This document shows, one piece after another, positions 7,227 to 41,227 of a DNA stretch of 64,000 nucleotides; positions within the stretch are counted from its first letter, which is position 1; every line of letters starts with the position of its first letter. The notes beneath the pieces were generated by a model. It was not told the DNA's origin and did not search any database. It was given only the letters and a program-made list of their open reading frames with translations. Position numbers and translations under genes: made by a program. This DNA comes from Marinobacter persicus (GTDB taxonomy: Bacteria; Pseudomonadota; Gammaproteobacteria; Pseudomonadales; Oleiphilaceae): contig NZ_PTIV01000016.1 of NCBI RefSeq assembly GCF_002934325.1, forward strand, positions 1-64,000, read 5' to 3'.

Positions 7227-10807
<3,581 letters not shown>

Positions 10808-10820
10808 AATGAGAAGGGCC

Positions 10821-12077: not shown

Positions 12078-12097
12078 GAAGTGTCTGAAATTCCCGT

Positions 12098-19523: not shown

Positions 19524-20714
19524 ATGAAAATCACTATCCAAAAACGCGAACCAGACAAGAACGGCCACCGTGCCTTGCGACTGGTCTACTATCACGGTTC
19601 CAAGACGGGTCAGAACGGTTCTCGGGCGCAGAAGCGCTCATATGAGCCCCTGAACCTGTTCCTCTACGACAAACCCCGCCTTCCGGCGGAGCGTGAGCAC
19701 AACAAGACCGTGAATCAGAAGGCTGAGGCCATCCGGGCAAAGCGGCTGTTGGAAATCGAGTCGTCACGACATGGCTTGGATGATCGGACCAAGCTTTCTG
19801 CCAGCTTCTTCGATTACTTCGATCAACTGACTGACGAGAAAGCTTCCGGAAGCAAATCCAACCATTCGATCTGGATCTCCACCCGTCATCACCTGCACCG
19901 CTTCCATGGCTTGTCTGAACTGACCTTTGAACAAGTCGATAAGCGATTCCTGGAGGGGTTCCGGCACTACCTTCAGCATGAAGCCACCACCAAATCCGGT
20001 ACCAAACTGGCCAAGAACACGACCAGCAGTTACTTCAACAAGGTTCGGGCTGCGCTCAACCAGGCCTATCGGGATGGCATTGTCCGTGACAACCCGGTTC
20101 AACAGGTCAAGTCCATCAAGCCGGAAAACACGAAGCGGACTTACCTGACCCTCGAAGAGGTCCGGGCTCTAACCAAAGCCGAATGCCGGTATGAAGTGCT
20201 GCGGCGGGCTTTCCTTTTCTCCTGCACCACAGGCCTTCGCTGGTCAGACATCCACAAGCTGGTCTGGGGTGAGATAGAGGAATTCGCCGATGGCCACTAC
20301 CGCATCATTTTTCGGCAGAAGAAGCTTGTGAACGCCGGGAACTCACTGCAATACCTGGATCTTCCAGACTCGGCTGTGAGATTGCTAAACCTGGAGAATC
20401 GCGGCAAGCCGGGTGATCGCGTATTCAAAGGTCTGAAGTATGACTCCTACACCAACGTTGCATTGGCGCAATGGGTCATGCGAGCGGGTATCACCAAGAG
20501 TGTGACTTTCCATGCCGGACGGCACACCTTTGCGGTCAATCAACTGGCCAGGGGTGTGGATATCTACTCGTTGTCCCGGCTTCTGGGCCACAGCGAGCTC
20601 AGAACAACGGAAATCTATGCGGACATACTCGAAACTCGCCGTACAGAGGCCATGAGGAGTTTTCCTGACATATTTGAGGAGACACTGGACGAGGTTGGGG
20701 AATGTGCAGCCTAA
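19524..20714 (+). CDS. int: Tyrosine recombinase, island integrase
   Basis: A 396-residue phage-type integrase with an N-terminal arm-binding region, a SAM-like core-binding domain (about 90-190) and a catalytic domain. The catalytic set is visible: R239 in TTGLRWSD, a lysine near 266, H330 and R333 in HAGRHTF, H356 in LLGHSELR and the nucleophile Y365 in TEIYADI. It lies directly beside attL and points into the island. An AGGAG ribosome site precedes ATG 19524. All catalytic residues are present, so excision and integration should still be possible. Confidence 0.93.
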   Translation: MKITIQKREPDKNGHRALRLVYYHGSKTGQNGSRAQKRSYEPLNLFLYDKPRLPAEREHNKTVNQKAEAIRAKRLLEIESSRHGLDDRTKLSASFFDYFDQLTDEKASGSKSNHSIWISTRHHLHRFHGLSELTFEQVDKRFLEGFRHYLQHEATTKSGTKLAKNTTSSYFNKVRAALNQAYRDGIVRDNPVQQVKSIKPENTKRTYLTLEEVRALTKAECRYEVLRRAFLFSCTTGLRWSDIHKLVWGEIEEFADGHYRIIFRQKKLVNAGNSLQYLDLPDSAVRLLNLENRGKPGDRVFKGLKYDSYTNVALAQWVMRAGITKSVTFHAGRHTFAVNQLARGVDIYSLSRLLGHSELRTTEIYADILETRRTEAMRSFPDIFEETLDEVGECAA

Positions 20715-23054: not shown

Positions 23055-23365
23055 GACTACTCCTGATTTTTTGTGAATCAATCGGGGGTAATCATCGGAA
23101 ATATTCGTCTTGGGGGAGAACCGTGGAATTGCCCTTAAAGGGCACAAAGGCGAGGGTGGATGATAACTTGTTGATAATTAATAGATAAAAATCAAAATAA
23201 ATTAAAAAAAACAAGTCATTACTGGAAATTTATGGCTTGCGCGAGTGGGTTTTGCGCATTTTATGATCAAATTAGCTATGTGTCTTTCACATGTGAAAGT
23301 CAGTGCTCGTTATCAGCTGCATTTTTTGATGCACTGAAACTGATAACCACTTTCTACATCAGCCA
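23055..23365. other. Gene-free stretch with a 16-base palindrome
   Basis: About 310 AT-rich bases between the small exporter gene and alpA. It should hold the alpA promoter. The palindrome CTTTCACATGTGAAAG lies at about 23284-23299 and could be an operator. A weak stem TGCATTTTTTGATGCA follows near 23320. No coding frame is supported. Confidence 0.5.
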
Positions 23366-23854
23366 CTAACCTGAAAATGGTAGCTGTTTACCATCTGACA
23401 CTTCGGTAATGCCTATTCCCGCTAGAAAGCCGAAGAGCAACGAACAAAAAATCAATGACAAGGTAAACCAAAATAGTACACTTCGTTTTGTAGCTCCCAT
23501 TGCCATAGCAAATGCGGCCGCAGCATGGACCCCAATAAGAAAAGGACCAAGAAAAGCTAAGCCAGGAACACCGAACTTTTCAAGAATTCGGTGTTTTCTG
23601 TCTTTACGTTCAGGTACGGATTCAGCTATATCATCAGTTTCAGATTTTTTTAGCCAACGGCGGACAAAAGCAGTTACTTTTTCACTGGCGTAGATAATCG
23701 GTAGTAAAGATACAAGGTTGCCGATAAAGCCAACCATAGCTGCGGGGAACCACGGCAAACCGGCCACTACTCCTAAAGGTACGGCAATCCACACTTCCAG
23801 AACCGGAATCGCGGCCCCAACAAATACACTTACATAAAGCATCAACTCATTCAT
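23366..23854 (-). CDS. Small multidrug export protein family (PF06695-like)
   Basis: A 162-residue membrane protein with an N-terminal hydrophobic block (LMLYVSVFVGAAIPVLEVWI), a second helix near residues 38-55, a charged loop rich in Lys, Arg and Glu (about 65-95), and two C-terminal helices. The pattern AAIPVLEVWIAVPLG with conserved acidic and proline residues matches the small multidrug export family, whose transport role is weakly supported. ATG 23854 is chosen because TAGGAAC precedes it and it starts 10 bases after the RND permease stop. It is the last gene of the RND operon. Confidence 0.7.
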   Translation of the reverse strand: MNELMLYVSVFVGAAIPVLEVWIAVPLGVVAGLPWFPAAMVGFIGNLVSLLPIIYASEKVTAFVRRWLKKSETDDIAESVPERKDRKHRILEKFGVPGLAFLGPFLIGVHAAAAFAMAMGATKRSVLFWFTLSLIFCSLLFGFLAGIGITEVSDGKQLPFSG

Positions 23855-23864
23855 GAAAAAGTTC

Positions 23865-26800
23865 CTACGCGTTCGCGCTCTTTTTATTAAAAAACAGTAC
23901 ATACAGGCTTGGAACAACGATAAAAGATGCCACGGTTCCCGAGATAAGTCCGCCCATAATTACAACATTAAACGATCTCCATAAGGGATCATTCGCTATG
24001 AGTAACGGAAGAAGTCCAAGTATCGTTGTTATTTGGGTTAACATAATTGGACGAAATCGTTCCATCAAAGCCGATTTAAGGGAATCGAGCTCAGATTTCC
24101 CCGATTCTTTTTCAATATCGACCTGCTCAATAATTAACATAGCATTCGATACAATAATCCCTATTAAGGCGAATATGGCCAGATTCGCCATAAAATCGAA
24201 AGGAAGACGGAAGATAACTAGCGCGAGCAGCAAGCCGATGGCACAAAAAGGTACGCTCAAGACGATAATTGTCACTTTTCTAAACGAATTATACTTATAA
24301 ATAAACAGTATAATCATTGCTAAGATACACAATGGTAAGAAAGCAAATATCGCTTCTGCTGTAACTTCACTTTCTTCAATCTCACCACCAAACTGTACTT
24401 GAACGCCAAATTGCTCTTTTACTTCATCAATAGTGTTTGATATGGAGTTAACTAATTCTTTTGATGTCATTGAAGGATTCAATGCTGTCACCGTGACCGT
24501 CGGTGTTAGGTTGCGCTTCTTAATAAGTGACGGATCATGCCTGGTTTCAATGATCGCTATATCAGATAGATATACCGGTTTAGACGAGGACTCGGGGAAT
24601 ACTTGGATATTCTCCAATTGAGATAATGATAAATTCTCCGATAAATTCGTGCTCAGTACGATTGGAATTTGATACTCGCCCTCCCGAAGTACTGAGGCAT
24701 TTTCTCCCAAACTATGTTCACGGAGTGCTAATAAGATATCCTCACGAGTCACCCCTGTGGATAGAGCTGCGGGACGATCAACCTTTACCAGAAAGTTCGT
24801 AACGGAACGTTCCCAATCTTGCTTTACGTTAATAGTGTGCTCTACCTCGTTGAGAGCTCCTTGAATAGCATCTGAAGCCTTTAGAATATTCGATTGCTTG
24901 TTACCAATAAGACGAATAGCGGCCTCTCCTGGCGGCGTGGAGCCCATAAAGAACGGGTTGATTTCGAGTTCGGCAAAAGGATATTCAGGAGGCATTTCTG
25001 CTCTTAGTTTATCGACAAACTCGCTGACAAGCGTATCTTTGGTGACGTTTACAACAAAATATGCCGAGTGAGGTGCTGGTTCAGGAGGGTTTAAACCAAG
25101 GATAAAGCGCGGTCCGCCTTCACTTACATAAGCTGTTGCACCTGTAATTTCCGGGAACCGATCATCATTACTTAGCCACTGAGTCATCTCTTCAGCTACA
25201 GCAGCCGTTTGTTCCGCTGGCGTGTTCGCTGGCAGCTCAACAGAAATCTGTAGTTGAGAACGTTCTGAAGGCGGGAAGAACGCCTCTGGGATGGTGCTTG
25301 ACACAAACAATGCCACTACAAGACTTAAAACCGAAGCACTTAGAAACAACTTCGGACGCGAAATAACCTTGTCCCAAAAGGAAGACATTACGTTCATTAC
25401 ATAGGAAGGTTTACCGCCAGAGATCCCCCGGGTCTTGGACGATTGATTGATAAACCATTTAGCCATGATTGGTGTTAACATCGTAGCGACAAACCATGAA
25501 ACAAGCAGCATCACACCAATGACAATAGTTAGTGTCTGCATATAAATAGCAGTAATATTGTCAGTGAACACCGGGGGAGCAAAAGCCAATATCACGGTTA
25601 AACTAGCAATAAGAATGGGCGTCCCCAGAGTCTTTCCCGCAGATAAAGCAGCCGACTCTCTCTCCTCGCCTTGCGCTACCCTTTTTGAGATGTCTTCAAC
25701 AATGACCATGGGATTGTCAACGAGTATACCTAAGGCAATGATGAACGACGCAATGCTTACTTCGTTGAGTTCTACGCCAAAAATTCTTAGAAAAACTAAC
25801 GTGATAACACCCGTGACAGGAACAGCCAGTGCCACCAAAGATCCCGCACGAAGACCCAAGGCAAGTACAGTGACGATCGTCACCACTAGAATAGTTTCGA
25901 GCAGCGTTGAAATCATTTTCGATATCACTTGATCAACGACTTTCCCCTGATCAGTGATGGTTTTCATTTGGTAACCTACCGGTAGCTCACTCCCCCATTC
26001 GTCCAGCTTACGGCGCAGTTGCTTGTTAAAATCCACCATATTAAGCCCAGGCGCCATATAACCAGCAACAACAATGGCCTGATCACCATCAAGGTATGCT
26101 GCACTATTCAGAGGTCTAGCCGGAACCCTGGTGACATCGGCAATATTTTTCAACGGAAGCATAGATCCGTCTGGTAGCGATATCACGGTTTCCTTAACTT
26201 CAGCCAGTTCGTCATAACTGCTCTCAACAAAAATTCGGCTTTGCTGAGTATCAAAATTGATACGCGCTACTTCCCCGAGAGAATTGCTCTTACTCAGTTG
26301 TAAAAAGATGTCATTAGGGTTCAGCGCATACTGTGATGCCACAAACGGCTTAAGTTCTATTGATATCTGTTCATCGGCAACACCGTGCAACGTAACTTTG
26401 TCCATCCCTGGAATACTATAAAGATAATTGCGAAGCTCATTTGCCTTGTCCCTCAACTCTCTAAAAGAATAATCCGTTGCACTTAGCGCTACTGTCATCA
26501 CGGCTACCGCATCGTAATTATCATTAACGAATGGCCCTGATACCCCCTCCGGCAACTCAGTAAGTACATCGTGCATTCTCGCTCTGACTCTAAGCCACGC
26601 ATGCGAATAACTTGGCGTACCATCTTTTATTTCAAGAGAGAGATAAATTTCTCCTGCCCTTATTGAGGTCGTAATATTTTTCGTTTCTTCTAATTCTCGC
26701 AACGCTCGCTCAATTGGTCGTGCAATAAGGGCTTCTGTCTCATAAACATCTAAGGCTGGGTGGTAAGCCGTTATGATGGTTTGGTTGATAGGTAAGGTGG

Positions 26801-26912
26801 GCTCCTCCCGAGAAGGGTAATCCGGATATAATGCCAGACCCGTGATCGTTAGTATTATGAAAATAAATAAAACAAGTCGGCTGTTTTTTATCGAAAAAGC
26901 AGTAATAGACAT
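23865..26912 (-). CDS. RND efflux transporter permease
   Basis: A 1015-residue AcrB-superfamily inner-membrane pump driven by proton flow. The order is helix 1, a large periplasmic loop, the TM2-6 block with GILVDNPMVIVEDI in TM4, a second loop, and the C-terminal helix block ending SLYVLFFNKKSANA. The TM4 motif is VDN rather than VDD, as in many RND members outside the AcrB subgroup. Its start overlaps the stop of the membrane fusion gene (TAATG). No outer-membrane factor gene is nearby, so a chromosomal TolC-like channel is presumably used. The region is visibly more AT-rich than the flanking core genes. Confidence 0.93.
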   Translation of the reverse strand: MSITAFSIKNSRLVLFIFIILTITGLALYPDYPSREEPTLPINQTIITAYHPALDVYETEALIARPIERALRELEETKNITTSIRAGEIYLSLEIKDGTPSYSHAWLRVRARMHDVLTELPEGVSGPFVNDNYDAVAVMTVALSATDYSFRELRDKANELRNYLYSIPGMDKVTLHGVADEQISIELKPFVASQYALNPNDIFLQLSKSNSLGEVARINFDTQQSRIFVESSYDELAEVKETVISLPDGSMLPLKNIADVTRVPARPLNSAAYLDGDQAIVVAGYMAPGLNMVDFNKQLRRKLDEWGSELPVGYQMKTITDQGKVVDQVISKMISTLLETILVVTIVTVLALGLRAGSLVALAVPVTGVITLVFLRIFGVELNEVSIASFIIALGILVDNPMVIVEDISKRVAQGEERESAALSAGKTLGTPILIASLTVILAFAPPVFTDNITAIYMQTLTIVIGVMLLVSWFVATMLTPIMAKWFINQSSKTRGISGGKPSYVMNVMSSFWDKVISRPKLFLSASVLSLVVALFVSSTIPEAFFPPSERSQLQISVELPANTPAEQTAAVAEEMTQWLSNDDRFPEITGATAYVSEGGPRFILGLNPPEPAPHSAYFVVNVTKDTLVSEFVDKLRAEMPPEYPFAELEINPFFMGSTPPGEAAIRLIGNKQSNILKASDAIQGALNEVEHTINVKQDWERSVTNFLVKVDRPAALSTGVTREDILLALREHSLGENASVLREGEYQIPIVLSTNLSENLSLSQLENIQVFPESSSKPVYLSDIAIIETRHDPSLIKKRNLTPTVTVTALNPSMTSKELVNSISNTIDEVKEQFGVQVQFGGEIEESEVTAEAIFAFLPLCILAMIILFIYKYNSFRKVTIIVLSVPFCAIGLLLALVIFRLPFDFMANLAIFALIGIIVSNAMLIIEQVDIEKESGKSELDSLKSALMERFRPIMLTQITTILGLLPLLIANDPLWRSFNVVIMGGLISGTVASFIVVPSLYVLFFNKKSANA

Positions 26913-28051
26913 TATCGTACTTCCTCAGCCGGTCGAACCTTCTGACCCTCACTGATAAAGGCAGCACCCGCAGCAACATACGAATCTCCTTTCTGAAGAT
27001 CACTTTTAATCCAGTAGCCACCTTCTTCAGCGTTAACAATACGGATGCCTGCTTTACTAACTCTCCCGGTTTTTTCGTTGTACTGGTAAACAAAAGGATT
27101 CCCATCAGTAGGCTCAGCAACAACAGCACTGTGAGGCACAAATATCGCGCCTTCTCCGTCGGGCATTCGATAACTGACGCTAACCACTAATCCTGGCAAA
27201 GGGCGTTTTTCTCGGGAAGTGTCGAGACGAAGTCTAACGGGGAAATTTAATCCCTCGTTTGCTCGCTCACCCAAATGCTCGACGGTGGCATTAAAATATG
27301 ACCCCCGATAGTTCACTGTGATCTCTAGTTCTTTGTCATTTGATATATACTCTGCCAGATCACCGGGAATTGATGAGTCAACGATGAACTTCTCCATGCC
27401 GTCAAATGTAAAAGCGACTTGATTTGCAGTGACTTCTTCGAAGGGTTCGACACTACGACTTGAAATGACCCCATCATAGGGTGCCTTGATAGCGGTTTTA
27501 GAAAGGTTTCGCTCTGCAAGCCTGATTTGTGCCAGGGCATCACGGAGCGTCGATTGAGCGTTTTCGTATGTCGATCTGGCAGCATCTAAATTCTGTTCAG
27601 ATACAGAGTTATTTTCACGCAACCGCACGAGTCGCTCATAATTTGTTTTAGCTTCTTCAAATGTAACCCGCGCTTTCTCAGCTTCAGAGCGAGCGCTCTC
27701 AAGGGCAAGCCTATAGGGCTCCTGATCCAGAACAGCCATCACATCTCCGGTGTTGAGCTGCGCGCCAATATCGAAGAGAACGTCGTTCACTGTACCATCA
27801 ACACCAAAAGACAATTGGCTTCGGTTTTCTGTCTGTGTCACTCCTGGAAAACGAATGCTATTAACATAAGCATCGTCGGCCACACTGTTAATCGATACGG
27901 CTCTTACGTTTTCTGTAGCAGTTTGGGTCGGTTCTTCACTACAGCCCTGTAACAGCAGTAAAGTACAAATAAGCATGCCTAATACGAAAACTCGATTAGC
28001 CCGTGCATAATAAATATGTAACTGATCATTTATATAAATAAGCGATGTCAA
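26912..28051 (-). CDS. RND periplasmic adaptor (HlyD/AcrA-type lipoprotein)
   Basis: A membrane fusion protein linking the RND pump to an outer-membrane channel. A lipoprotein signal LLLLQGC follows a basic segment (RANR). It is followed by the barrel-sandwich half (VNDVLFDIGAQLNTGDVMAV), an alpha hairpin (about 110-175), and KAPYDGVISSRSVEPFEEV. I chose the TTG at 28051, since AGGAC lies eight bases upstream and a start at the later ATG (27976) would remove the basic n-region. It is coupled to the permease and lies 27 bases after the TetR gene. Confidence 0.88.
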   Translation of the reverse strand: MTSLIYINDQLHIYYARANRVFVLGMLICTLLLLQGCSEEPTQTATENVRAVSINSVADDAYVNSIRFPGVTQTENRSQLSFGVDGTVNDVLFDIGAQLNTGDVMAVLDQEPYRLALESARSEAEKARVTFEEAKTNYERLVRLRENNSVSEQNLDAARSTYENAQSTLRDALAQIRLAERNLSKTAIKAPYDGVISSRSVEPFEEVTANQVAFTFDGMEKFIVDSSIPGDLAEYISNDKELEITVNYRGSYFNATVEHLGERANEGLNFPVRLRLDTSREKRPLPGLVVSVSYRMPDGEGAIFVPHSAVVAEPTDGNPFVYQYNEKTGRVSKAGIRIVNAEEGGYWIKSDLQKGDSYVAAGAAFISEGQKVRPAEEVR

Positions 28052-28077
28052 TTTGTGAAGTCCTATAAACGAAAATA

Positions 28078-28674
28078 CTAAGGTCGAGGTCTTAAAAGCG
28101 TTTGTATAAACAGCCTTAACATGTCAGGCGAATACTCGGCGTCAGCCGTTGCAATATGGCAGGATATTCCGTCAATATATGCGAAAATAAAATGAGTTAT
28201 CTGTTCAGGCGTTAGGTGATTACTAATTACGCCCGTGTCTTGTGACTTTTTAAACATCGAGCACGAAACATCATAAAGCTCCTTGCTTGAATTAAGTACA
28301 ATCTTCTTTATCTCGGGGTTTCTAGACGATTCCGCGAGTATTTCTAAGTACATAATTGTTCCGGTCGTGTCACCGGTGAGGTGCGCTTCTTTCTCCAGAG
28401 CTGTTTGAAAGTCGTCGGCGCTTTCTACTCTTTTGAGGGCAGCCATGTCTCTTGAAAAATATCGCTTGGCGATTTCCAAGATCAACTCATTTTTTGAGGA
28501 AAAATATTGGTAGAGGCTAGCTTGACTAACGCCAGCCATTCGAGAAATCTCAGCGATTCCAGCCCCGTGAAAGCCTTTCTTAACGAAGCACTGGATGGCA
28601 CCATTAATGATTCGCTCTATTTTCGCTTCACGAGCAGCATAATTGATTGGACGGCCAATATTCGACATCTTCAC
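28078..28674 (-). CDS. TetR/AcrR-family regulator of the RND operon
   Basis: A 198-residue TetR-family repressor. The N-terminal HTH (INGAIQCFVKKGFHGAGIAE, then ISRMAGVSQASLYQYFSSKN) is standard, and the C-terminal half is a ligand-binding helical domain. It is the first gene of the unit tetR - adaptor - permease - small exporter, so it most likely represses its own operon until an exported compound binds. The ligand is unknown. Confidence 0.9.
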   Translation of the reverse strand: MKMSNIGRPINYAAREAKIERIINGAIQCFVKKGFHGAGIAEISRMAGVSQASLYQYFSSKNELILEIAKRYFSRDMAALKRVESADDFQTALEKEAHLTGDTTGTIMYLEILAESSRNPEIKKIVLNSSKELYDVSCSMFKKSQDTGVISNHLTPEQITHFIFAYIDGISCHIATADAEYSPDMLRLFIQTLLRPRP

Positions 28675-29126
28675 ACCTTAATTAAGTGAATAATCATTTA
28701 TATAATATACCGGTAGCATTGTCAACCATAAAGGTCCTTTCAGAGCCCCATTCAAGCCCTATTAGTAAACATCTACACCAACAATCGCGCAAAGAGTCCT
28801 TTTCGAGGCTCTTAAGAGAGGGAGAAGTGCTGGCAGGGAGGTTACTGGACTGAGAGCACGTCGTTTCCACCTGATTTGGAAAAACCACGCACTGGGATTC
28901 CGGCGACAACTTATCCAGATTAGTAGCGTATGTGCTGCTCATATCTCCAAGAGGCGACCTATTAGAGCGCATGGAATGGGCTCAAAGTTATCCAAATCAG
29001 ATAGGTATGTGTAGCGATTGGAAAGTCCTCCAGGAGAGTCCCCGACCGCTGTTGGAGAACTCTCGCTCATTGTGATCGTCCAGCCACTACTTTCCGCCCC
29101 AGTTGCCGGGGCGCTGTTCCCACTGC
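28675..29126. other. Stretch without a convincing gene
   Basis: About 450 bases upstream of tetR. The first 60 bases are AT-rich (TTATATAATATACC) and likely hold the operon promoter. Two overlapping minus-strand frames (28694-28972 and 28939-29130) are open but lack ribosome sites and recognisable content. The one ending at 28939 could be a scrap of a type I restriction gene, given the hsdR remnant nearby, but I cannot show it. Confidence 0.4.
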
Positions 29127-31226
29127 TCAATCAGCATCGTTCCCCATCTGCTTTTCGAACGCCTGTCGAATGAGCCCCATTACATAGGCCAGCTCAGATT
29201 CCTCACTTAACCCTACTTCTACATCGCCATTTCCCCAACGTCCGAGGTTGGTCACGTCACGAGCCATCCCTTTCGGATCGCTCAACTCGTGAAACGGCAT
29301 ATTCAGAGACAGTCGCAAACGGGTCTTTTGCGGGACCACATCGACAAAGTTCGTCTCGGCTTTGAACGCTATATAGAGCTTGAGAACTTCTTCAGTGACG
29401 CTCGGGTCGAGCGCCTGGACTTCCTTTCGGAGCTGCTCAAATAGAGCGCGCATTGGGGTCCCGTTTGCTAGTTGAGGGTGATCCTCAAGATTGTAGGCTT
29501 CTGGTTTGACGGCCACGTTGCGGTAGGTATCGAGGATCTCGTCCGGCAATACCGGAGCCGCCCAAACCCGCACCGCTTCCTGGGCCAGCTTGGCGGCCCG
29601 ATTCTTAATTGAGTCCTCATTCCATGCTTCTACAGCTCCCAGGCCCTCGTTGAGCCGTAGAGGGCTTTGTTTGAATCCGCCCTGCATATCGCGCTTCTCG
29701 ATGAAAGCTCGGTCGCTGTACTCTGAGTTGTAGCCCGTAAGAGTCAGGTTACCCAGCGTATGCAGCCAGGTTTCATGCACACGCTTCCATTCCGGACCTA
29801 GCTCATCCTTCCATCTAGCAGACAGATTCTCATTCTGCGGCATGATGTGTTCAATCGTGTATTCGTCGACCGGAACCCGCTCCTTGCGCTCGAAATTCTC
29901 CAGGCGGCGTAACCAGTAACTCCGGCTGCGGAAATTATAGAGATCGCGTACTGCCAGTTCCCTTTTGAACTCTTCGTCATTCGGAAAACGCCGGTATGAC
30001 TTCAAACCGAGCAGGTGAGCCTTGACGCTCTCCAGGTAACGGTTCTTCTGCAATGATTTGTGAAAGGTCGCAAAGGTCTTGTTCAGCGAGTTTGTGGGGA
30101 TGGCACAAACGGCACGACGGAACACATAAGCCTCGATCAGCCGAATAGCGCTATGAAAGTCATCTTGGGACAGATTGTCCTGTTGGTAATCATGGTAAAG
30201 TTCCAACAGAAACGGATATGCCACATCGACTTTGAGTTCACGCAGATCTTTAAATGCCATTCCGAGCTGTTTATCTGTTTCTTTCCCCAATGCCATCGCA
30301 CAAAAATACCGAGCGAAAGCATGTATTTCGGCAACCAATGAATCGACACCAGCACTCGCAACTTCGGCGCGACGTGAATGCTGTTTGAAAGCCTCGTACA
30401 CTTCATCTAACCGTGGAATTTCCCCGGTTTTAACCGTGAGGTAGTGACGCATGAAGCTGTCAAAGTAAACGCCATAGCCTTCTTGCCCGAATTCCACCTC
30501 CATCGGACGCCAGTGGTCGCGATAGAGCCGAGTTTGATGCTCCGGCTCCAGTCCCATCAGCACATAGTTCCGGATCAGGTCAGCCTGGCTCAAAGCTTTT
30601 CCTGTGGAATTCATGCTCTCAAAAATGAGTTGCGGGTTATCCTGGTCTCGGCTCAGCGCAATATCAACGATGATGAGCTTTGAAAGGCCCCGGCAGAGGG
30701 TTTCCAGTTCCCCGTTTAGCCGCTCAATCTGGCTGTTGAAGAACTCGAAGTTTTCTTGGATTCGAAGAGAACCGTCATCAGGTAACGGCTTCTGCGTGAC
30801 CAACGCCAGCAGGCTCTCTTTGTCCGTCTGGGTCAATAGCAGTTTGTAAGCTCGCTCACCGTCTTCCAACGGGTTAAGCAGGTAGTAATTGCGCAGCTTC
30901 TTAGCCGAAAACCCCTCCAGAGTCTCTGTGTTCCCAAGGTGTCGAGATAGCGCCTCAAGAATCAGCATGGTGGTAGTCAGTCGCTGTTGCCCATCAATGA
31001 CCAGCAATGGTGATTGACTGGACACCTGATAAAGCCCCTTCTCGATGTAGACCACCGAGCCAATGAAATGTGCTGATATACCATCGTTGGTGCCGGCTCG
31101 CATAATGTCGTCCCACAGTTGGCGACATTGCTGTTCAGACCAGGAATACGTTCTCTGGTAAATCGGAATGACAAATTGTGGCGACTTCTTCAGGAAGTCG
31201 AGCAACTTGGCTTCTGTAGCTTTCAT
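29127..31226 (-). CDS. DUF262/DUF1524 protein, GmrSD-type defence nuclease
   Basis: A 699-residue single-chain GmrSD-like protein. The N-terminal DUF262 (ParB/DndB-like) domain shows IPIYQRTYSW (20-29), IDGQQRLTT (77-85) and ESMNSTGKALSQADLIRN (203-220). The DUF1524 HNH nuclease shows EHIMPQN (459-465) and GNLTLTGYNSEYSDRAF (492-508). The last 110 residues match a DUF5655-like module. Members such as GmrSD and BrxU are NTP-dependent enzymes that cut modified phage DNA. All key motifs are present. It lies 27 bases after an hsdR remnant and downstream of the TrlF-like gene on the same strand. Confidence 0.88.
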   Translation of the reverse strand: MKATEAKLLDFLKKSPQFVIPIYQRTYSWSEQQCRQLWDDIMRAGTNDGISAHFIGSVVYIEKGLYQVSSQSPLLVIDGQQRLTTTMLILEALSRHLGNTETLEGFSAKKLRNYYLLNPLEDGERAYKLLLTQTDKESLLALVTQKPLPDDGSLRIQENFEFFNSQIERLNGELETLCRGLSKLIIVDIALSRDQDNPQLIFESMNSTGKALSQADLIRNYVLMGLEPEHQTRLYRDHWRPMEVEFGQEGYGVYFDSFMRHYLTVKTGEIPRLDEVYEAFKQHSRRAEVASAGVDSLVAEIHAFARYFCAMALGKETDKQLGMAFKDLRELKVDVAYPFLLELYHDYQQDNLSQDDFHSAIRLIEAYVFRRAVCAIPTNSLNKTFATFHKSLQKNRYLESVKAHLLGLKSYRRFPNDEEFKRELAVRDLYNFRSRSYWLRRLENFERKERVPVDEYTIEHIMPQNENLSARWKDELGPEWKRVHETWLHTLGNLTLTGYNSEYSDRAFIEKRDMQGGFKQSPLRLNEGLGAVEAWNEDSIKNRAAKLAQEAVRVWAAPVLPDEILDTYRNVAVKPEAYNLEDHPQLANGTPMRALFEQLRKEVQALDPSVTEEVLKLYIAFKAETNFVDVVPQKTRLRLSLNMPFHELSDPKGMARDVTNLGRWGNGDVEVGLSEESELAYVMGLIRQAFEKQMGNDAD

Positions 31227-31253
31227 AACGGACGTTATCCCTTTTTTGTTCTG

Positions 31254-31613
31254 TTACTGTGATTCAACGCTGGTTTTGACCTGGTTATACACAGCCCGCA
31301 TCAGGTACTGAGAAGCGATATTGCGGAAGGATTCGTCGTTCATCAAGCGTATGAAGATGTCTTCGTTGCCGTCCATTCGCTCTACAAACAAATTCTCAAG
31401 CTGCTTGTTAAATACCGGTTCGAAATTCTCCAGGCTGTTGGCCATGACGGCCTGCCGTAGCTGTTCGTTGGCAACAGCGGTTCCCTTCACCTGATCGAAG
31501 AACAGCTGATCCGCCGGGGTAAATTCAGTACCAAATCGCTCGTTGAGCTTGTCGACCAGCGTCGATAACTGCACCTCTTCCTCTCCCTGGCCGGTGCCGA
31601 CCTCGATCGGGCC
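31254..31613 (-). pseudogene. C-terminal remnant of type I restriction subunit HsdR
   Basis: An in-frame stretch of about 119 codons without a proper start (GTG at 31574 is the only candidate) reads GPIEVGTGQGEEEVQLSTLV... and contains NERFGTEFTPADQLFFDQV, ANSLENFEPVFN and ERMDGNEDIFIRLMND. This is the characteristic C-terminal helical tail of type I restriction HsdR proteins. The helicase and nuclease domains, hsdM and hsdS are absent. It lies between the TrlF-like gene (9 bases) and the DUF262 gene (27 bases), so it may still be translated through coupling. Confidence 0.75.
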
Positions 31614-31624
31614 TTAAGTTGTCC

Positions 31625-34540
31625 TTATCGCTTGAAAGCGTACTTACGCTCTCGCTCTTCGAATGCAAGTTGCCCCCCCTCTAGAACCTCGCAAATATGC
31701 TCTCTAATGCCGAATTTCTTAAGCAATGAAGGCGCATCTGGTTCGAAAAACGTGCACTCCATGGCGCCGGAAACATATTCGAATCTAAATTGCTCGTTTT
31801 CCATATCATGCTGCTGGCCAGCCTGATTCGCGACGATAACACATTCGGAATCCGTGGATACAACCATATTAGCGTTGTGAGTGACCATGATGATTTGTCT
31901 TTTCTCTTTCCTTTCCCTAATAAAGTCGCGGAGTTCATTATAAACTGTTCGGTTATCTAAATTATCTTCAGGCTGATCTATAAGTATAGGGTGAGAGGAA
32001 TTGCTCAAGTGTAGTATGAGATGGAGAAGCACCAGTCCTCGCTTACCGGGCGACATGCTGATAATGTCGTCATTTTTATAAAGCAAGTTAAAAGATATGT
32101 AAAAGCAATCCTGAAGTAGATTTCTAAGGATTAGTTCCTCGTTCGCACTCTTTCGAACTTTATGGGCGATCTGGGAGAAATCTCGAACCTTCTCGCTCAG
32201 GGTGAATATAGAGTCTAAATGCGTGTCTTTTGAGTAAATATAATTGTTTTCACTATCAATCGAGTCGCCTAGAATACTTGCAAGGCTTCCTCTGGCATCA
32301 AAACAGTTTATGAAAGAATCGAAACTATTGTGATCGAATTCTAGGCTAGCTTGAAGCGTTATATTTTCATTGTCTATCTTCGCAGCACCATTGAAAAGCG
32401 CCTCTATTTCACCATATGTGTCAAACAACTGCTCATACAGGGCTTTAAGCTGATCAGAAGCTGCTTTTCCTTGTTCGAGAGTGCTTTTGACCTTCTTGCC
32501 TGCTTCTTGAATAGCTCTAAGCTTAGCTTCTTCCCGTTTTTGCGCCTCTAGAAGTCCTTTCAATTCGTTTTGGCTTTTTACTTTAGACGAGAATTTTTCA
32601 AGACTTTCCGTGGTATTTATAATTCTTTCATCTAGCGAGCCTATCAAGCTATTAGCGCGGCGAATGTTCTTTCCCGCTTCTATTGGCAGGTCATCAATAA
32701 TTTTCTGAATCTTAGCCAGTGTTATCTGAACAAGGCGGCTTCCAGTGTGAAACCGTTTTTTTTCTGACTCTTCAGAATTCGTCATAAGAGCTACGTTTCT
32801 AAACGAGTCTTCCATCTCTCTTACTAATTCATTTTTTAGCTCAGTGTGTATTTCAATATATCTTAAAAGAGACGAACGCCTTTTTTCACTAACTGACAAT
32901 CTGTCGCTAAGCTTTTTATAAATCTTGCTTTCTTCAGGAGTAAAACCTGATGATTTTTTTATTTTTTCTATTTTTTCTTTTATTTTTTCTCTTTCATTAT
33001 TTACCGAATTCTCAGCTCCTATTTTTTCCTTTTCGCTCTTTTCTTTTGCATACTTGTGTCTGAGGGATACAAGTTTTGTAACCTGTGTACTGATGCTCTC
33101 ATTCAACGAATCACATTTTTTAAAAAGCTCTTCAGCATCTAGCTTTATTTCCCTGTCTTGATATAGAATTTCGAGTACAAGCTCATTGAGTTGATCTCGA
33201 CCACTTTCCTCGGCTAATTTATTTATATATAGCTGAGGTATATAGGTTATTGGTCGTTGGTCGTTTGTTTCTCTAAAGCTTTGTTTAGTGTTGTCGTTCC
33301 AAGTGATTTCAAAGTCGAAATTTGATTCATTTTCAAATTCTGGATAAGTACTTGCCTTTGCTAGATCACACTTCTTTACGGTTTCCTCTTTGTTTGCCGT
33401 CCTTGAAATATGATAGAGTAAAAGCGATTTCCCTGAGGATTTGCCACCAATAATCGAATTTAAATCCGAATTTAATTCTATTTTATATTCAGGAAAAATA
33501 TTTTTCCCACTGGAATCTTTGAATCGAACAGAGTCTATAACTTCATAGCTTACCTTATCGCCAGGGCAGGTATCTTGAATAGCAACCCGTGACCTCGGCT
33601 CAAATACTACCTGCTTGAGGCCCTCAAAAGTAAGATCAGCCTTTATCCAAGTGTTATTTTCTTCGTCAGGCTCAAAAAGTGTGTCGTATGCATGTGCATC
33701 AGAACCCCATATACAAGCTTTAGGTAAGCCAAATTCTTTTCTGAAAGAGGTAGGATTATCGTGATAATCTCCGAGCAAGAAGCTTCTCGTACGCTTGTTA
33801 GATGAGAATATCAGTTGGCTCTGTTGAATAAGTGTCTTCCGAGTACCGTGACCGGCCGAGTTCCAACTTACTCTGCTGAGGTCTTCGTCACACGGCAAAG
33901 CTAACAAGTAGTTTTTTTTGAATCTTCCATCTTCGGTGAGCAGTTCTGCTATTTCGCTTGTATTGACCGAGGCATTGCAGATCCCTACCGCAAGGGCAGA
34001 TTGGCCTCTAAACTCGGGGTGTTCTTCAATTAGTCTTTCACCATATTCTATCAAGTTTTCTTTGGTTAAGGCTCTTCTCTCTGCTTTAAGCCCTGTTTCA
34101 GCGTGAGTTTCAAACTGTATTCTAGATAAAAACTCTCTTTGGATTAATGTGGGAGACAATTCATTGGAAAGGATAACGTGGAAGTTGGTCCGCCTATTCC
34201 ATTTTAAGTCGACCTCTTTGCCTACTACGAGTTTGTCCAAGCGAAACTCGAGATTTGGGAAAATAGCAATATTCTTAATTTTCCTGATTTCATCCTCATC
34301 AAATAGCTCAGATAGTTTATCATCGTTGAGAATATAGTCTTCGACTACTTTTTTATAGCCGTCAAGAAGGCAATAGTCGGTCAGGCCAATGGCACTTACA
34401 TTATGATCTATTGCTGACCGAAAGAGTTTTCTGACGTAATTGTCAAAGTCGTCGCCGAACTGGTTGTTCAGAATTGAAAATGGGGTATGGACATGGAGGT
34501 CCCACTTTCTCCAAATTGATCCTTTTGAGCAGTTTTTCAC
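31625..34540 (-). CDS. TrlF-family PHP-phosphoesterase/SMC-like ATPase
   Basis: A 971-residue two-domain protein. The N-terminal PHP domain shows DLHVHTP (14-20), GLTDYC (about 53) and GSDAHAYDT (about 277), with the usual metal-binding His and Asp residues. Walker A IGGKSSGKSLL follows near residue 350, then a long Glu/Lys-rich coiled coil (about 470-700), and the C-terminal ABC half with ILIDQPEDNLDN and IIMVTHNANMVV. It thus resembles a RecN/SMC-type ATPase joined to a nuclease-like head. Family members cluster with restriction and other defence genes. The gene is much more AT-rich than the core genome, a sign of recent transfer. Confidence 0.85.
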   Translation of the reverse strand: MKNCSKGSIWRKWDLHVHTPFSILNNQFGDDFDNYVRKLFRSAIDHNVSAIGLTDYCLLDGYKKVVEDYILNDDKLSELFDEDEIRKIKNIAIFPNLEFRLDKLVVGKEVDLKWNRRTNFHVILSNELSPTLIQREFLSRIQFETHAETGLKAERRALTKENLIEYGERLIEEHPEFRGQSALAVGICNASVNTSEIAELLTEDGRFKKNYLLALPCDEDLSRVSWNSAGHGTRKTLIQQSQLIFSSNKRTRSFLLGDYHDNPTSFRKEFGLPKACIWGSDAHAYDTLFEPDEENNTWIKADLTFEGLKQVVFEPRSRVAIQDTCPGDKVSYEVIDSVRFKDSSGKNIFPEYKIELNSDLNSIIGGKSSGKSLLLYHISRTANKEETVKKCDLAKASTYPEFENESNFDFEITWNDNTKQSFRETNDQRPITYIPQLYINKLAEESGRDQLNELVLEILYQDREIKLDAEELFKKCDSLNESISTQVTKLVSLRHKYAKEKSEKEKIGAENSVNNEREKIKEKIEKIKKSSGFTPEESKIYKKLSDRLSVSEKRRSSLLRYIEIHTELKNELVREMEDSFRNVALMTNSEESEKKRFHTGSRLVQITLAKIQKIIDDLPIEAGKNIRRANSLIGSLDERIINTTESLEKFSSKVKSQNELKGLLEAQKREEAKLRAIQEAGKKVKSTLEQGKAASDQLKALYEQLFDTYGEIEALFNGAAKIDNENITLQASLEFDHNSFDSFINCFDARGSLASILGDSIDSENNYIYSKDTHLDSIFTLSEKVRDFSQIAHKVRKSANEELILRNLLQDCFYISFNLLYKNDDIISMSPGKRGLVLLHLILHLSNSSHPILIDQPEDNLDNRTVYNELRDFIRERKEKRQIIMVTHNANMVVSTDSECVIVANQAGQQHDMENEQFRFEYVSGAMECTFFEPDAPSLLKKFGIREHICEVLEGGQLAFEERERKYAFKR

Positions 34541-34710
34541 ATATCCCTCGCAGTCAACCGTAAGAATTGCTTTTTATTGTCAAACTATCGTATACACAGG
34601 TCGGTGCGAATACAAAAAAATCTAGGTCTTTCGACAAATCTTGTACCCAGAGGATTACGTAGTTCAAGCCAAATACTGTTTGTAATCATCCACTAAAATA
34701 GATGCATAAA
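34541..34710. other. Short gene-free stretch upstream of the TrlF-like gene
   Basis: About 170 AT-rich bases that should carry the promoter of the TrlF-DUF262 unit (minus strand). I see no conserved motif beyond general AT-richness. Confidence 0.4.
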
Positions 34711-34746
34711 GCCCGTCGGAAAGGGACGGGCCTGAACGATTTTTTG
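34711..34746. terminator. Hairpin terminator at the 3' side of the mobI-like gene
   Basis: GCCCGTC, loop GGAAAGG, GACGGGC, with a T run (34740-34746) on the plus strand and only a short TTTA on the minus strand. By position it should end the minus-strand mobI-like transcript. By T-run strength it reads better on the plus strand, where no gene precedes it. Confidence 0.5.
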
Positions 34747-34747
34747 T

Positions 34748-35326
34748 TTAGGATTCTGGAGGCCGAAGGCCATCGAAGTGCGCCTCCAAACTGTCCAACT
34801 GCTTCAGGTTTGCCCTGACGAGACGGCGCATGTGAGTGAGGTTTGCATTCATGATACGCACTATCTCAAACCCGGCTTCGGTCTCCTCAATGATGGGCCT
34901 TTCCCAGTCGTGAGCGCGGTTAAATGCGGGTTTTGAGTACCGGTGTTTCAGGGCACGGCGGATGTGTTCACTGAAAACCGCATGTCCCTTACCGTTTTTC
35001 ACTCTTACGAAGGTGTTGTAGTACCAGTGCATTTCCAAGCTGCCGTGCAGCATTCTCACCCGGCAGCCGTGATGGCCAGGATAGCCTCTCGTTTCTTTGG
35101 TTCGATGAGCCTCATTATGCGCCCAGAAATGGTCCGACAGTCGCTGAGCGAGATAGCGAAGGCGCGCTCGCTCCATATCCAGGCTTTTGGAAAGTGATTG
35201 TAGATACTGTCTGCATTGACCAAGTGCCATTCGGCGCCCCTGATGATGGTCAAACTCCCCGGCGCGCGCCACCTCATGCCACTTATCGGTGATTTCCTGA
35301 ATGGTTTTGGGTTTGCTCATTAGCAT
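34748..35326 (-). CDS. MobI(A/C)-like conjugative mobilisation protein
   Basis: A 192-residue basic protein. The block CRVRMLHGSLEMHWYYNTFV (about 89-108), FSEHIRRALKHRYSKPAF and the C-terminal helical ETEAGFEIVRIMNANLTHMR resemble the MobI family of SXT/R391 and IncA/C elements. There MobI is needed at oriT to start transfer. ATG candidates are M1 and M3; a CAGGAG site lies before the first. About 100 bases upstream lie inverted repeats of the kind found at oriT. On this island it would let a helper conjugative element mobilise the DNA. The family call rests on remembered pattern, not a search. Confidence 0.55.
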   Translation of the reverse strand: MLMSKPKTIQEITDKWHEVARAGEFDHHQGRRMALGQCRQYLQSLSKSLDMERARLRYLAQRLSDHFWAHNEAHRTKETRGYPGHHGCRVRMLHGSLEMHWYYNTFVRVKNGKGHAVFSEHIRRALKHRYSKPAFNRAHDWERPIIEETEAGFEIVRIMNANLTHMRRLVRANLKQLDSLEAHFDGLRPPES

Positions 35327-35359
35327 TCTCCTGTTGGTTGATGTTCAAGAGAAATGCTA

Positions 35360-35428
35360 CTGGCCGCAGAGACAAACCCACGGGTCTGTAATTTGCCAAT
35401 TTGGGCAAAAGTAGCCGTTTACCCCAGA
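35360..35428. other. Candidate oriT upstream of the mobI-like gene
   Basis: Two adjacent inverted repeats lie here: ACAAACCC/GGGTCTGT around ACG (about 35372-35390) and TTTGCC-AATTTG-GGCAAA (35393-35410). In SXT-type and IncA/C elements the origin of transfer lies next to mobI. This region, and the 100 bases between the mobI-like gene and the next small gene, is the obvious place for it here. Confidence 0.35.
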
Positions 35429-35625: not shown

Positions 35626-36255
35626 CTATGCTGCACCTGACTGCTTTTGTTCCTTTGCGACAGAGGCAATCAGATGGCGCGAACAACCCAGGATGTCCTG
35701 GATTTCGTTATAGCTATGGCCAGTGCGCAGTAAACTGGCGATGTGTTGCCGCCTCTTCAGATCAGGTTGACGCCCCTGATACTTACCCTCGCTGCGAGCC
35801 TTGTTGATCCCTTGATTCTGTCGGCGACGTCTGTCCTCATAGTCTTTCCGGGCTACCGCTGCCAACATGTCGAGCATCATGCTGTTGACCGCCTGCAAGA
35901 TAGATTCGGTAAAGCCGGTGTCGTCTTTCTTGTCCAGAGCCAGCCAACTCGTTGGTAACTCGGGCGAGACAATCGCCAACCGCTTGGCTGCCAGCTTCTG
36001 TTTGAGCGTATCCCAGTCCTGCTGTTTAAGGCGGGCAAGCCGGTCTATCTGCTCTACCAGCACAATGTCACCTTCACCAGATTCGGCAATCAGTCGCATC
36101 AGTTCGGGACGATGCAATGTGGCACCGGAGACGTTCTCGGTATAAAAGGCAGCAATGCGCTGACCGTGTTGCTCGGCAAACTGGATTAGCGATGCTTTGG
36201 CCCGCTCGGCATTTTGTTCCTGGGTCGATGCTCTCAAATAGGCGCGTATAAACAT
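35626..36255 (-). CDS. Serine recombinase / resolvase-invertase family protein
   Basis: A 209-residue small serine recombinase. The N-terminal catalytic domain has YLRASTQEQNAERA with the nucleophilic serine at about residue 10, the arginines of EQIDRLARLKQQDWDTL, and ARKDYEDRRRRQNQGI. The C-terminal HTH is IASLLRTGHSYNEIQDILGC. AGGAGG lies five bases before ATG 36255. It could resolve island multimers or act as a DNA invertase; no inverted target was found nearby. It is probably co-transcribed with the genes at 36376-38090. Confidence 0.88.
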   Translation of the reverse strand: MFIRAYLRASTQEQNAERAKASLIQFAEQHGQRIAAFYTENVSGATLHRPELMRLIAESGEGDIVLVEQIDRLARLKQQDWDTLKQKLAAKRLAIVSPELPTSWLALDKKDDTGFTESILQAVNSMMLDMLAAVARKDYEDRRRRQNQGINKARSEGKYQGRQPDLKRRQHIASLLRTGHSYNEIQDILGCSRHLIASVAKEQKQSGAA

Positions 36256-38536: not shown

Positions 38537-40846
38537 TTGAGGTTATCTGAGCTTGAGAAGGAAAAAGTAGCCTTACTTTCCCGGAGGAACGAGCTTCAGC
38601 GAGCTGCACAATCACCCACATCAATGCAATTGACTCCCAATCAAAAAGCTGAGTTATTTCGGGAGCTCTTTCGCGGCCGACAGGATGTCTATGCGGTTCG
38701 CTGGGAAAGTAGCTCGAATGGACGTTCCGGTTATGCTGTCGCCTGTGCAAATGAGTGGGTACAGGGCATCTGTCAGAAACCCCGGATCAAATGTAGCGAG
38801 TGCCCTCACAAAAAGTTCAAGCCTCTGGATTTCAGTGCAGTGTATGACCACCTGTCCGGCAAGCATGTAGCAGGGTTATACCCATTGTTGCCGGACAGTT
38901 CCTGTTATCTGCTGGCTGTAGATTTTGATAAGGAGGACTGGAGAGCAGATGTTCGTGCGCTGGCCCAGGCTTGTCGTGATGAAGGTGTCCCTTATCTTGT
39001 AGAGATCTCCCGGTCCGGTGCGGGTGCCCACCTATGGGTCTTCTTTTCGGACGCTGTTCCAGCCTGGTCCGCGAGGGCTTTGGGGTTCAAGCTGCTGGAC
39101 AAAGCCATGGAACGTCACCCGGGCCTGTCCTTCGATTCGTATGACCGGCTATTCCCCAACCAGGATACGATGCCCGATGGTGGATTTGGCAATTTGATTG
39201 CCCTTCCGCTTCAGCATGAGGCGCGAAGTCGTGGATGTACTGTATTCGTCGACGATAAGCTAACCCCGTATCCGGATCAGTGGGCGCTACTTAGTCAGCA
39301 AAAGACCGTTTCGCCGGCTCAGCTTCGAGATATCGTTGGAAATGAGCCTGATTCCGATGCGATAGCAGAAGTTGCGTTGCCGTGGGAACAAGCTTTACCG
39401 GTCGATACAGGGATAATTTCAGGATGTCCCGAGAGCATCACGCTTACCCTGGCCAATCACATTTATATGAAGTTGTCAGACATACCAGGGACACTGGCGG
39501 CACGAATAAAGCGCATGGCGAGCTTTGCCAATCCAGTATTTTTCAAAACCCAGGCACTTCGATTTTCAACTCATGGCATCCCTCGTTACATATCATGTGC
39601 CCGGATTGAGCAAGGTTATATCTCGGTACCGAGAGGCTGTTTTGATGATCTTCAGGCATTGTTGCACGAACAGGGAATAACAGTAGAAATCGATGACCGC
39701 AGAATGCCCGGCCAGTTGCTGCCGGAAGTCAGCCTGAAAGCAACGCTGCGTCGTGATCAGAAAAAGGCTGTGACGGCGCTTGCCGATCACGATACCGGAA
39801 TACTTCATGCTCCGACCGCTTTCGGCAAAACCGTAACCGCTATTGGCATTGTCGCCAAGCGGCAGGTAAACACGCTGATCCTCACTCACAGTCGTCAGTT
39901 ACTGGATCAATGGAAGGAGCGCCTGGAGACCTTTATTGAGGGTGCCTCCGTAGGTGTGATTGGCGGCGGCAAAAAGAAACCTACCGGTCAGATCGACGTT
40001 GCCACCTATCAAAGCCTGATCAACAAGAAAGATAATACGGTCTCAAGCAAGATCCGAGAATACGGGCAAGTCATCATCGATGAATGCCATCACATTTCAG
40101 CTCCCCGTTATGAAATGCTGCTTAACGAAGTCAGCGCCCGATATGTTGTAGGCCTCACCGCAACGCCTGACCGTCAGGATGGCCACCAAAAAATCATGTT
40201 TATGGTCGCGGGACCCGTTCGTCACAAAGTCAGGGCTGACCATGGGTCTAAGTTTGTCCAGCGTGTCATTGTTCGAGAACGTCATGAAACGCCACCGACG
40301 GACATCTTTCAGAATAATGGTGAACGACCACACATAGCATCGGTTTACCGTTGGCTCGCCCAAAGCAACGCCCGGAATCAGGATATTGTTCAGGATGTCG
40401 TACACTGCGTACAAAACGGGGCCAACTGTCTTTTGCTGACCGAACGACGAGAGCACGCCGAGACGCTGGCAACATTGTTGGAAGCTGAGTCTATATCGTT
40501 GGTTGTGTTGCGCGGCGGGATGCGCGTCAAAGAGCGCCGGGGTGTCGAATCGCAGCTACACGAAGCTCAGGTTATTGTTGCAACCGGGAAATACATTGGA
40601 GAAGGCTTTGACTTGCCTCGGCTCGACACTTTGTTTCTAGCCCTGCCCATAGCCTGGAAAGGAACGCTGTCGCAGTATGCTGGCAGGATTCACCGGGACG
40701 TCGACGGCAAGCAGGAAGTCACTGTGTACGACTACCTGGACAACAGTCTGCCAATGCTTGAACGCATGTTCCGAAAGCGCGAGAAAGGTTATAAGGCGAT
40801 GGGATACCAGTTTGCCCAATCCGAGCCGCAAACACGGCTACTGTAA
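38537..40846 (+). CDS. TOTE-type primase (AEP)-helicase fusion
   Basis: About 769 residues: a short coiled coil; a Cys cluster (ICQKPRIKCSECP, 79-90) likely binding zinc; an archaeo-eukaryotic primase domain with LLAVDFDKEDW (125-135), SGAGAHLWVFF (160-170) and the later LIALPLQHE; then a superfamily 2 helicase. The helicase has APTAFGKT (425-432), IIDECHHIS (513-521), GLTATPDR (539-546) and YAGRIHR. This order is that of the primase-helicase of TOTE conflict systems. The start is uncertain: TTG 38537 lacks a ribosome site, while GGGAGG at 38493 points to an in-frame ATC at 38504 that would add 11 residues and complete the coiled coil. Confidence 0.8.
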   Translation: MRLSELEKEKVALLSRRNELQRAAQSPTSMQLTPNQKAELFRELFRGRQDVYAVRWESSSNGRSGYAVACANEWVQGICQKPRIKCSECPHKKFKPLDFSAVYDHLSGKHVAGLYPLLPDSSCYLLAVDFDKEDWRADVRALAQACRDEGVPYLVEISRSGAGAHLWVFFSDAVPAWSARALGFKLLDKAMERHPGLSFDSYDRLFPNQDTMPDGGFGNLIALPLQHEARSRGCTVFVDDKLTPYPDQWALLSQQKTVSPAQLRDIVGNEPDSDAIAEVALPWEQALPVDTGIISGCPESITLTLANHIYMKLSDIPGTLAARIKRMASFANPVFFKTQALRFSTHGIPRYISCARIEQGYISVPRGCFDDLQALLHEQGITVEIDDRRMPGQLLPEVSLKATLRRDQKKAVTALADHDTGILHAPTAFGKTVTAIGIVAKRQVNTLILTHSRQLLDQWKERLETFIEGASVGVIGGGKKKPTGQIDVATYQSLINKKDNTVSSKIREYGQVIIDECHHISAPRYEMLLNEVSARYVVGLTATPDRQDGHQKIMFMVAGPVRHKVRADHGSKFVQRVIVRERHETPPTDIFQNNGERPHIASVYRWLAQSNARNQDIVQDVVHCVQNGANCLLLTERREHAETLATLLEAESISLVVLRGGMRVKERRGVESQLHEAQVIVATGKYIGEGFDLPRLDTLFLALPIAWKGTLSQYAGRIHRDVDGKQEVTVYDYLDNSLPMLERMFRKREKGYKAMGYQFAQSEPQTRLL

Positions 40847-41213: not shown

Positions 41214-41227
41214 TACCATAACCTCCT

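Follow-up and report, generated by a model that had tools for sequence, protein, structure and literature searches.

Probable exchange of a type I restriction operon for a TrlF cassette in a predicted mobilizable element of Marinobacter persicus

A contig of Marinobacter persicus (NZ_PTIV01000016.1, positions 1 to 64,000; this 64,000-nucleotide stretch is referred to as the window) carries three consecutive reading frames on the minus strand between 34540 and 29127: TrlF, then a C-terminal fragment of HsdR, then a GmrSD-type enzyme (Table 1). The original prediction, which is confirmed as to the three frames and their common strand, proposed that a type I restriction locus had been eroded or replaced, leaving TrlF and GmrSD as a possible two-component system in which the HsdR tail may still serve as a coupled or docking peptide. 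Is the block a new two-part machine, or is it what remains after one defence module has taken the place of another? Comparison with related loci makes it very probable that a type I operon was replaced by a TrlF cassette within a mobilizable element, that the hsdR fragment is a scar of this exchange, and that the two intact genes encode probably independent defences.

Table 1. Features of the TrlF-GmrSD locus and of the element around it (positions in the window)
Feature	Position	Strand	Description and basis
TrlF-family PHP + SMC/Rad50-like ABC ATPase	31625..34540	-	971 aa, GTG start, complete; NF045780
hsdR C-terminal 119 codons (residues 894-1012 of 1012), probable replacement scar	31254..31613	-	Identity to HsdR of sister loci
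GmrSD-type (type IV) restriction enzyme, DUF5655 C-terminal domain	29127..31226	-	699 aa, ATG start, complete; Pfam
Exchangeable cargo slot (holds the TrlF cassette; in sisters, type I RM)	31617..34703		blastn breaks, junction alignments
MobI mobilization protein bounding the slot	34748..35326	-	PF19456, 107.5 bits
Serine recombinase, element backbone	35626..36255	-	PF00239
Tyrosine integrase, near the element's left end	19524..20714	+	Tyrosine-recombinase models, under their cut-offs

Two complete genes and a fragment

The TrlF protein passes the NCBIfam model NF045780 with 576.5 bits against a cut-off of 350 and aligns to model positions 1-943 of 944. Residues H16, H18, D55, E98, H121, D281 and H283 in its PHP part, together with G365, S369, G370, K371, SPG at 830-832 and D855-Q-P in its ABC part, are invariant across seven aligned sequences, which include those of the window and of L007, a related locus in Idiomarina; in a wider set of 13 sequences, H121, S369, S830 and P831 are absent from the invariant list. 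We take these residues to be the PHP metal ligands and the ABC Walker and signature motifs. A structure model was built from 13 sequences (mean pLDDT 79.5, pTM 0.60), and in a fold search its C-terminal part matches SMC/Rad50 heads, with residues 332-957 resembling the SMC heads 5xei (Z 15.6, rmsd 11.6, 410 aligned) and 1w1w (Z 15.5, rmsd 3.1, 225 aligned). Residues 9-328 resemble the PHP endonuclease EndoQ (5zb8, Z 13.2, rmsd 3.7, 216 aligned) and also match PsfC (7rty, Z 13.0, rmsd 3.8, 204 aligned). A PDB sequence search with TrlF gave no match. Family knowledge and the predicted fold together suggest that TrlF is likely a single-chain enzyme in which an SMC/Rad50-like ATPase gates a PHP hydrolase or nuclease.

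The GmrSD protein exceeds the Pfam cut-offs for PF03235 (DUF262, 121.8 bits against 33.2), PF07510 (DUF1524, 87.2 against 23) and PF18899 (DUF5655). Its motifs QR (Q24-R25), DGQQR (D78-R82), FxxxN (F202-N206) and EH..N..N of the His-Me finger (E459-H460, N493, N500) are invariant in 15 aligned sequences, and roles were assigned to these residues by motif from the accessible portion of a study of TgvAB and related enzymes (PMC11411939). Since the residues important in TgvAB and its relatives, as that portion gives them, are kept, the enzyme is predicted, probably, to sense and cut modified phage DNA. A PDB sequence search returned four partial matches, two of which are SspE. In PADLOC, the same gene (29127-31226) matches the model Orf5 at 693 bits, far above HEC-06 (228 bits).

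Both genes had been predicted to be complete with intact motifs, and the family models and alignments bear this out. They also look constrained in sequence comparisons, TrlF on the basis of one sequence pair: between the window and L007, dS is 0.062 and dN/dS 0.127. For GmrSD, dN/dS is 0.03-0.10 between the window and six sister copies and 0.03-0.13 over all GmrSD pairs, and full hsdR pairs from five intact loci give 0.02-0.05. Base composition differs along the block, with a GC content of 38.8% at 32001-34000, in the AT-rich TrlF gene, compared to 52.3% at 29001-31000.

The middle frame is the HsdR C-terminal tail and nothing more, as had been predicted; against an intact HsdR (residues 892-1012) it shows 95% identity, and against the HsdR ends of sister loci 95-97%. 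The fragment has no Pfam or NCBIfam match at E 0.01 and a weak match to a PADLOC model (E 0.00075), and in a PDB sequence search an intact HsdR matches EcoR124-type HsdR outside the tail region. A type I system is thus not present at the locus, where HsdR residues 894-1012 alone remain. The frame is closed upstream by a TAA at 31616-31614, and its first ATG, GTG or TTG is the GTG at 31574, which gives an ORF of 106 aa (31574-31254). Of the two gaps originally reported, the 27 bases between tail and GmrSD stand, and the 9 bases between TrlF and tail become 50, counted from the TrlF stop, if a start codon is required.

A cargo slot and its probable older content

A GmrSD scan of one genome per species yielded 94 relatives, and the best 80 of these 94 represent 78 distinct loci. 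Ten of the 78 are close copies, with a GmrSD protein at least 97.5% identical, and the hsdR tail is found in nine of the ten. In six of them (L002, L003, L004, L005, L008 and L053) the tail is the end of an intact hsdR of 1012 aa, and GmrSD lies 26-27 bp downstream in five of these six, with two genes in between in L053. In three others (L001, L056 and L007) the tail stands after TrlF, as in the window. The tenth, L006, combines a GmrSD 98.6% identical with a distinct type I system and lacks the tail. In the close copies the operon runs WYL regulator, HsdM, HsdS, HsdR, with a DinD-like gene, or in L005 a Fic gene, between the last two, and its components pass type I Pfam models. The replacement of a type I locus had been predicted, and it is supported by sister elements that carry the operon intact at this position. 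Outside the close copies, the more diverged L074 also reads hsdM-hsdS-hsdR-GmrSD, its HsdR being 55% and its GmrSD 78% identical. The tail is also present in L148 (G646), which is probably the genome of L004 again.

The gene between hsdS and hsdR varies, being DinD-like at L003:5957-6895 and elsewhere and Fic at L005:5706-6854. In L149 (G581, 10032-13067) the full-length hsdR ends in the tail but is interrupted by a stop at codon 743, and the DinD-like gene lies in two pieces about 1.3 kb apart; this type I operon may be decaying in place.

An association of GmrSD with type I genes extends beyond the close copies. HsdM, HsdS or HsdR homologues occur in 40 of the 78 loci (best 80 of 94 relatives) and, with the ten close copies left out, in 26 of the 47 loci of at least 12 kb from the same set; the query proteins were taken from the same GmrSD loci and named by Pfam. 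This agrees with the accessible parts of two earlier studies, in which type I RM domains are among the most enriched GmrSD neighbours (Machnicka et al., PMC4619093) and TgvAB is a GmrSD-type system embedded in type I RM (PMC11411939).

The slot lies in what appears to be an element. MobI is present in 7 of the 78 loci (L001, L003-L007 and L056; best 80 of 94 relatives), the serine recombinase in L001, L006, L007 and L056 (in L003 and L004 the locus ends within it), and the integrase in L001-L006 and L056, with L007 having it split in two and L053 having fragments of it. A region of 18.9-19.1 kb is common to the window, L001 from Pseudidiomarina and L056 from Marinobacter at 98% DNA identity. 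An integrase, a mobilization gene and distant hosts together identify an integrative mobilizable element, with excision and transfer predicted from sequence. Comparison of the island DNA with plasmids gave three short matches and nothing longer, and the exact TrlF-hsdR junction was not found in IMG/VR. MobI matches occur in 4 of 341 genomes of the order, those of the window and G646 at 98% or more and the rest, at 53%, being a related MobI. The genome of the window itself has a second MobI, 53% identical (G000:C12:63066-63626), so a related element may sit elsewhere in it.

The boundaries of the slot are sharp. On the hsdR side, blastn homology stops at 31616 in L002, L003, L004, L005, L008 and L053, and base-level alignment places the right junction directly before GGCCCGA of hsdR. 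On the other side, homology resumes at 34695-34708 near MobI in L003, L004, L005 and L006, and behind mobI the left junction directly follows what looks by eye like an inverted repeat. The L006 alignment picks up again at 31271 of the window, which leaves just the last bases of the old hsdR. Between mobI and the fixed point in hsdR, the window, L001, L056 and L007 hold a 3.1-kb TrlF cassette. Of the eight MobI-bearing copies, four thus have TrlF, three (L003, L004 and L005) the type I system and one, L006, a type I system of another kind; since GmrSD was the query by which they were collected, they give no unbiased word on its retention. The sister loci with intact hsdR and the fixed junctions point to a defence-cargo slot in which the tail is a scar.

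The older state of the slot would have been a type I RM operon (WYL regulator-hsdM-hsdS-DinD-like/Fic-hsdR) followed by GmrSD. The TrlF cassette would have displaced everything from behind mobI to hsdR codon 893, and the last 119 codons, as the comparison indicates, would have been left between TrlF and GmrSD. Synonymous differences between the window and L007 number 36/607 in TrlF, 23/125 in MobI, 19/77 in the tail and 56/475 in GmrSD, and TrlF is less diverged than MobI (Fisher p 3e-5), the tail (1e-6) and GmrSD (9e-4). The closer likeness of TrlF than of both flanks suggests that the cassette moved between element backbones that had already diverged; judging from these patterns, it was probably exchanged later by crossovers in the shared flanks.

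A second variable region is present in the same element at 23337-28727, where homology to the sister copies, except L001 and L056, is broken; it carries RND efflux genes and a TetR regulator.

Partnership, docking peptide or scar

An assembly artefact or chimera that fused TrlF to an hsdR fragment would account for the sudden shift at the junction in both GC content and homology. However, the same junction is present in the Pseudidiomarina L001, Marinobacter L056 and Idiomarina L007 assemblies, with sequence differences in L007, which makes an artefact vanishingly improbable. A two-component defence that arose when TrlF came to lie upstream of GmrSD, TrlF being for example the sensor or DNA loader and GmrSD the nuclease, deserves closer attention. 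The two genes are on the same strand 398 bp apart, and a scan of that strand over 31000-35400 reported no terminator-like site, although both promoter and terminator scans scored under shuffle expectation in this interval. The arrangement is kept in four genomes, and the TrlF protein is 98.2% identical between the window and L007. The wider distribution of the two genes argues against a partnership. TrlF scores above the cut-off in 20 of 369 genomes of the class, own genome included. Around the other 19 genes, up to 8 kb was read on each side (less at contig ends), and an HMM of GmrSD relatives found no relative of the window GmrSD in any of these stretches (0/19). PF03235 was searched in the 20 TrlF genomes, and 6 of the 19 have a Pfam GmrSD_N match elsewhere, five of them on a different contig and the sixth at a distance of about 0.7 Mb; the viral and plasmid neighbourhoods were searched with the HMM, by which a remote DUF262 gene could be missed. 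L137 has a TrlF 47% identical to that of the window and no GmrSD in the 18.9 kb read. None of 17 IMG/VR TrlF loci has a relative of the window GmrSD by HMM, and GmrSD is neither annotated nor found by HMM in the plasmid TrlF neighbourhoods L131 and L132. Conversely, TrlF is found in 4 of the 78 GmrSD loci (best 80 of 94 relatives): it is adjacent in three (L001, L007 and L056), all of the same element, and 8.4 kb away in L034. Within the order, 10 of 341 genomes have a GmrSD relative, own genome included, and of the nine others one, L151, has TrlF in the stretch searched (two of these stretches were short). Sister elements, in addition, carry GmrSD without TrlF. Of the conserved TrlF-DUF262 neighbourhoods for which a search had been proposed, direct adjacency was thus seen in one element only, and a looser co-occurrence in two distant type III RM loci, L034 and L151. 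On one strand, L034:7096-22074 and L151:2-12995 hold a DrmD-like SNF2 helicase, GmrSD, type III Mod, type III Res and TrlF, with TrlF following Res by 0.4 kb in L151 and 3.5 kb in L034. This order is the best evidence for a wider, if loose, relation between TrlF and GmrSD. A similar helicase overlaps TrlF by 4 bp in L169 (IMG/VR). Given the rarity of linkage, TrlF and GmrSD are most likely independent, and the predicted two-component system is accordingly unlikely. GmrSD would act alone, sensing and cutting modified phage DNA as expected from its family, and TrlF would act separately. Cooperation, for example with the TrlF ATPase detecting phage DNA or loading onto it before GmrSD makes the cut, is improbable; if true, it would mean that a type I plus type IV pair was turned into a TrlF plus type IV pair, in parallel to the loose co-occurrence in L034 and L151.

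The tail has also been considered as a peptide, translated from the GTG at 31574, that docks or couples to GmrSD, TrlF or a resident type I methylase. Its frame is open in the window, L001, L056 and L007, and a purine-rich, SD-like stretch precedes the GTG by eye. The open frame was rejected as a sign of function, as 18 substitutions leave it open in 55% of neutral simulations. Selection was assessed over 118 codons (the last codon was left out) by counting the private changes of each allele, with six intact hsdR alleles as reference; L149 was left out for its stop. The L007 tail has 13 nonsynonymous and 5 synonymous changes (13/18), compared to 1 nonsynonymous and 17 synonymous single-allele changes in the intact alleles (Fisher p = 8e-5). 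With a neutral expectation of 0.713 nonsynonymous, L007 fits neutrality (p = 1.0) and the intact alleles do not (p = 8e-9). The window tail, with 3 nonsynonymous and 8 synonymous changes, has fewer amino-acid changes than neutrally expected (p = 0.003) and does not differ significantly from the intact alleles (p = 0.14). This counts against a simple claim that the tail is dead everywhere. It can be read as a tail that was recently replaced or carries inherited allelic differences, and allelic variation from an unsampled hsdR could explain the pattern. The proposed docking role thus fails for L007, where the tail looks neutral, and for L006, where a near-identical GmrSD does without it; the window copy (3/11 nonsynonymous) is the part that may speak for it. 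The draft genome (94 contigs) has no other close copy of HsdR or HsdM, with partial matches at 27-32%, and so offers no close HsdM partner. A docking peptide is therefore highly improbable.

Relation to known defence systems

In defence-cargo slots of integrative elements, constant backbone genes flank defence modules that can be swapped. The slot described here is like these in holding TrlF or either of two type I systems; it differs in that its right boundary lies inside hsdR, so that a replaced module leaves a recognisable scar. The exchange of type I for TrlF is best accounted for as a further case of a familiar type of event, set apart by boundaries of unusual clarity, and it resembles routine swapping of defence cargo more than a novel machine of two parts.

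In the accessible portions of the published descriptions, TgvAB (V. cholerae VPI-2) and RloF are similar in that a genomic island encodes a DUF262/DUF1524 enzyme together with a type I RM operon, within it or next to it (PMC11411939, PMC4619093). The sister elements L003-L005 have this TgvAB/RloF-like arrangement, with GmrSD beside the type I operon, whereas in the window the type I genes are gone and TrlF is in their place. The window GmrSD is a single protein with a DUF5655 tail positioned after hsdR, whereas TgvA and TgvB, according to that portion, form a pair encoded within the operon.

TrlF of the Photorhabdus Temperature Restricting Locus shares the family name and protein type, linked by the name of the NCBIfam model (PMC7554251). 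According to the part of that source available, the Photorhabdus operon is trlR-trlF-trlG, the phenotype was mapped to trlG and no trlF mutations were recovered. A trlG gene (AlbA_2 + HATPase_c_4) was not found beside the window TrlF, in contrast to Photorhabdus. A TrlG-like gene is immediately downstream in 11 of the 19 other TrlF loci, so trlG is not defining for the TrlF protein family; all six TrlG-like genes checked have the AlbA_2 + HATPase_c_4 architecture, which is that of Photorhabdus TrlG in the same part of the source (PMC7554251). The anti-phage protein Ppl (NF042955, PDLC02208) has mainly its C-terminal ATPase region in common with TrlF, whose scores of 74.2 bits (NCBIfam) and 67.8 bits (PADLOC) are far under the Ppl cut-off of 1000 bits, and TrlF is thus not a Ppl. 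Relatives of TrlF are distant in phage records (7 records, 0 covering 80%) and in plasmids (784 records, 174 covering 80%; best full-length identity about 37% among the matches listed), with one plasmid record in the 60-80% identity band. No paper in the literature collection searched brings TrlF, ATPase and phage together, and PMC13092281 does not mention TrlF, PHP, GmrSD or histidinol.

The comparison gives base-level limits for a defence-cargo slot in an element common to several marine genera. An apparent defence unit with a remnant peptide can be a replacement scar, which calls for caution in inferring partnership from adjacency. The element copies also provide a natural experiment, with near-identical GmrSD beside TrlF or either type I system, in which the complementarity of a type IV enzyme with other defences is measurable.

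Beside the element, the window carries at 38537-40846 a gene for an AEP-TOTE primase plus helicase protein (PF22548, 318 bits), similar to TOTE conflict systems. At 40890-41468, a single ORF encodes a HigB-like toxin that is truncated (model positions 2-64 of 91) and, after it, a HigA antitoxin, an arrangement suggestive of fusion by a frameshift.
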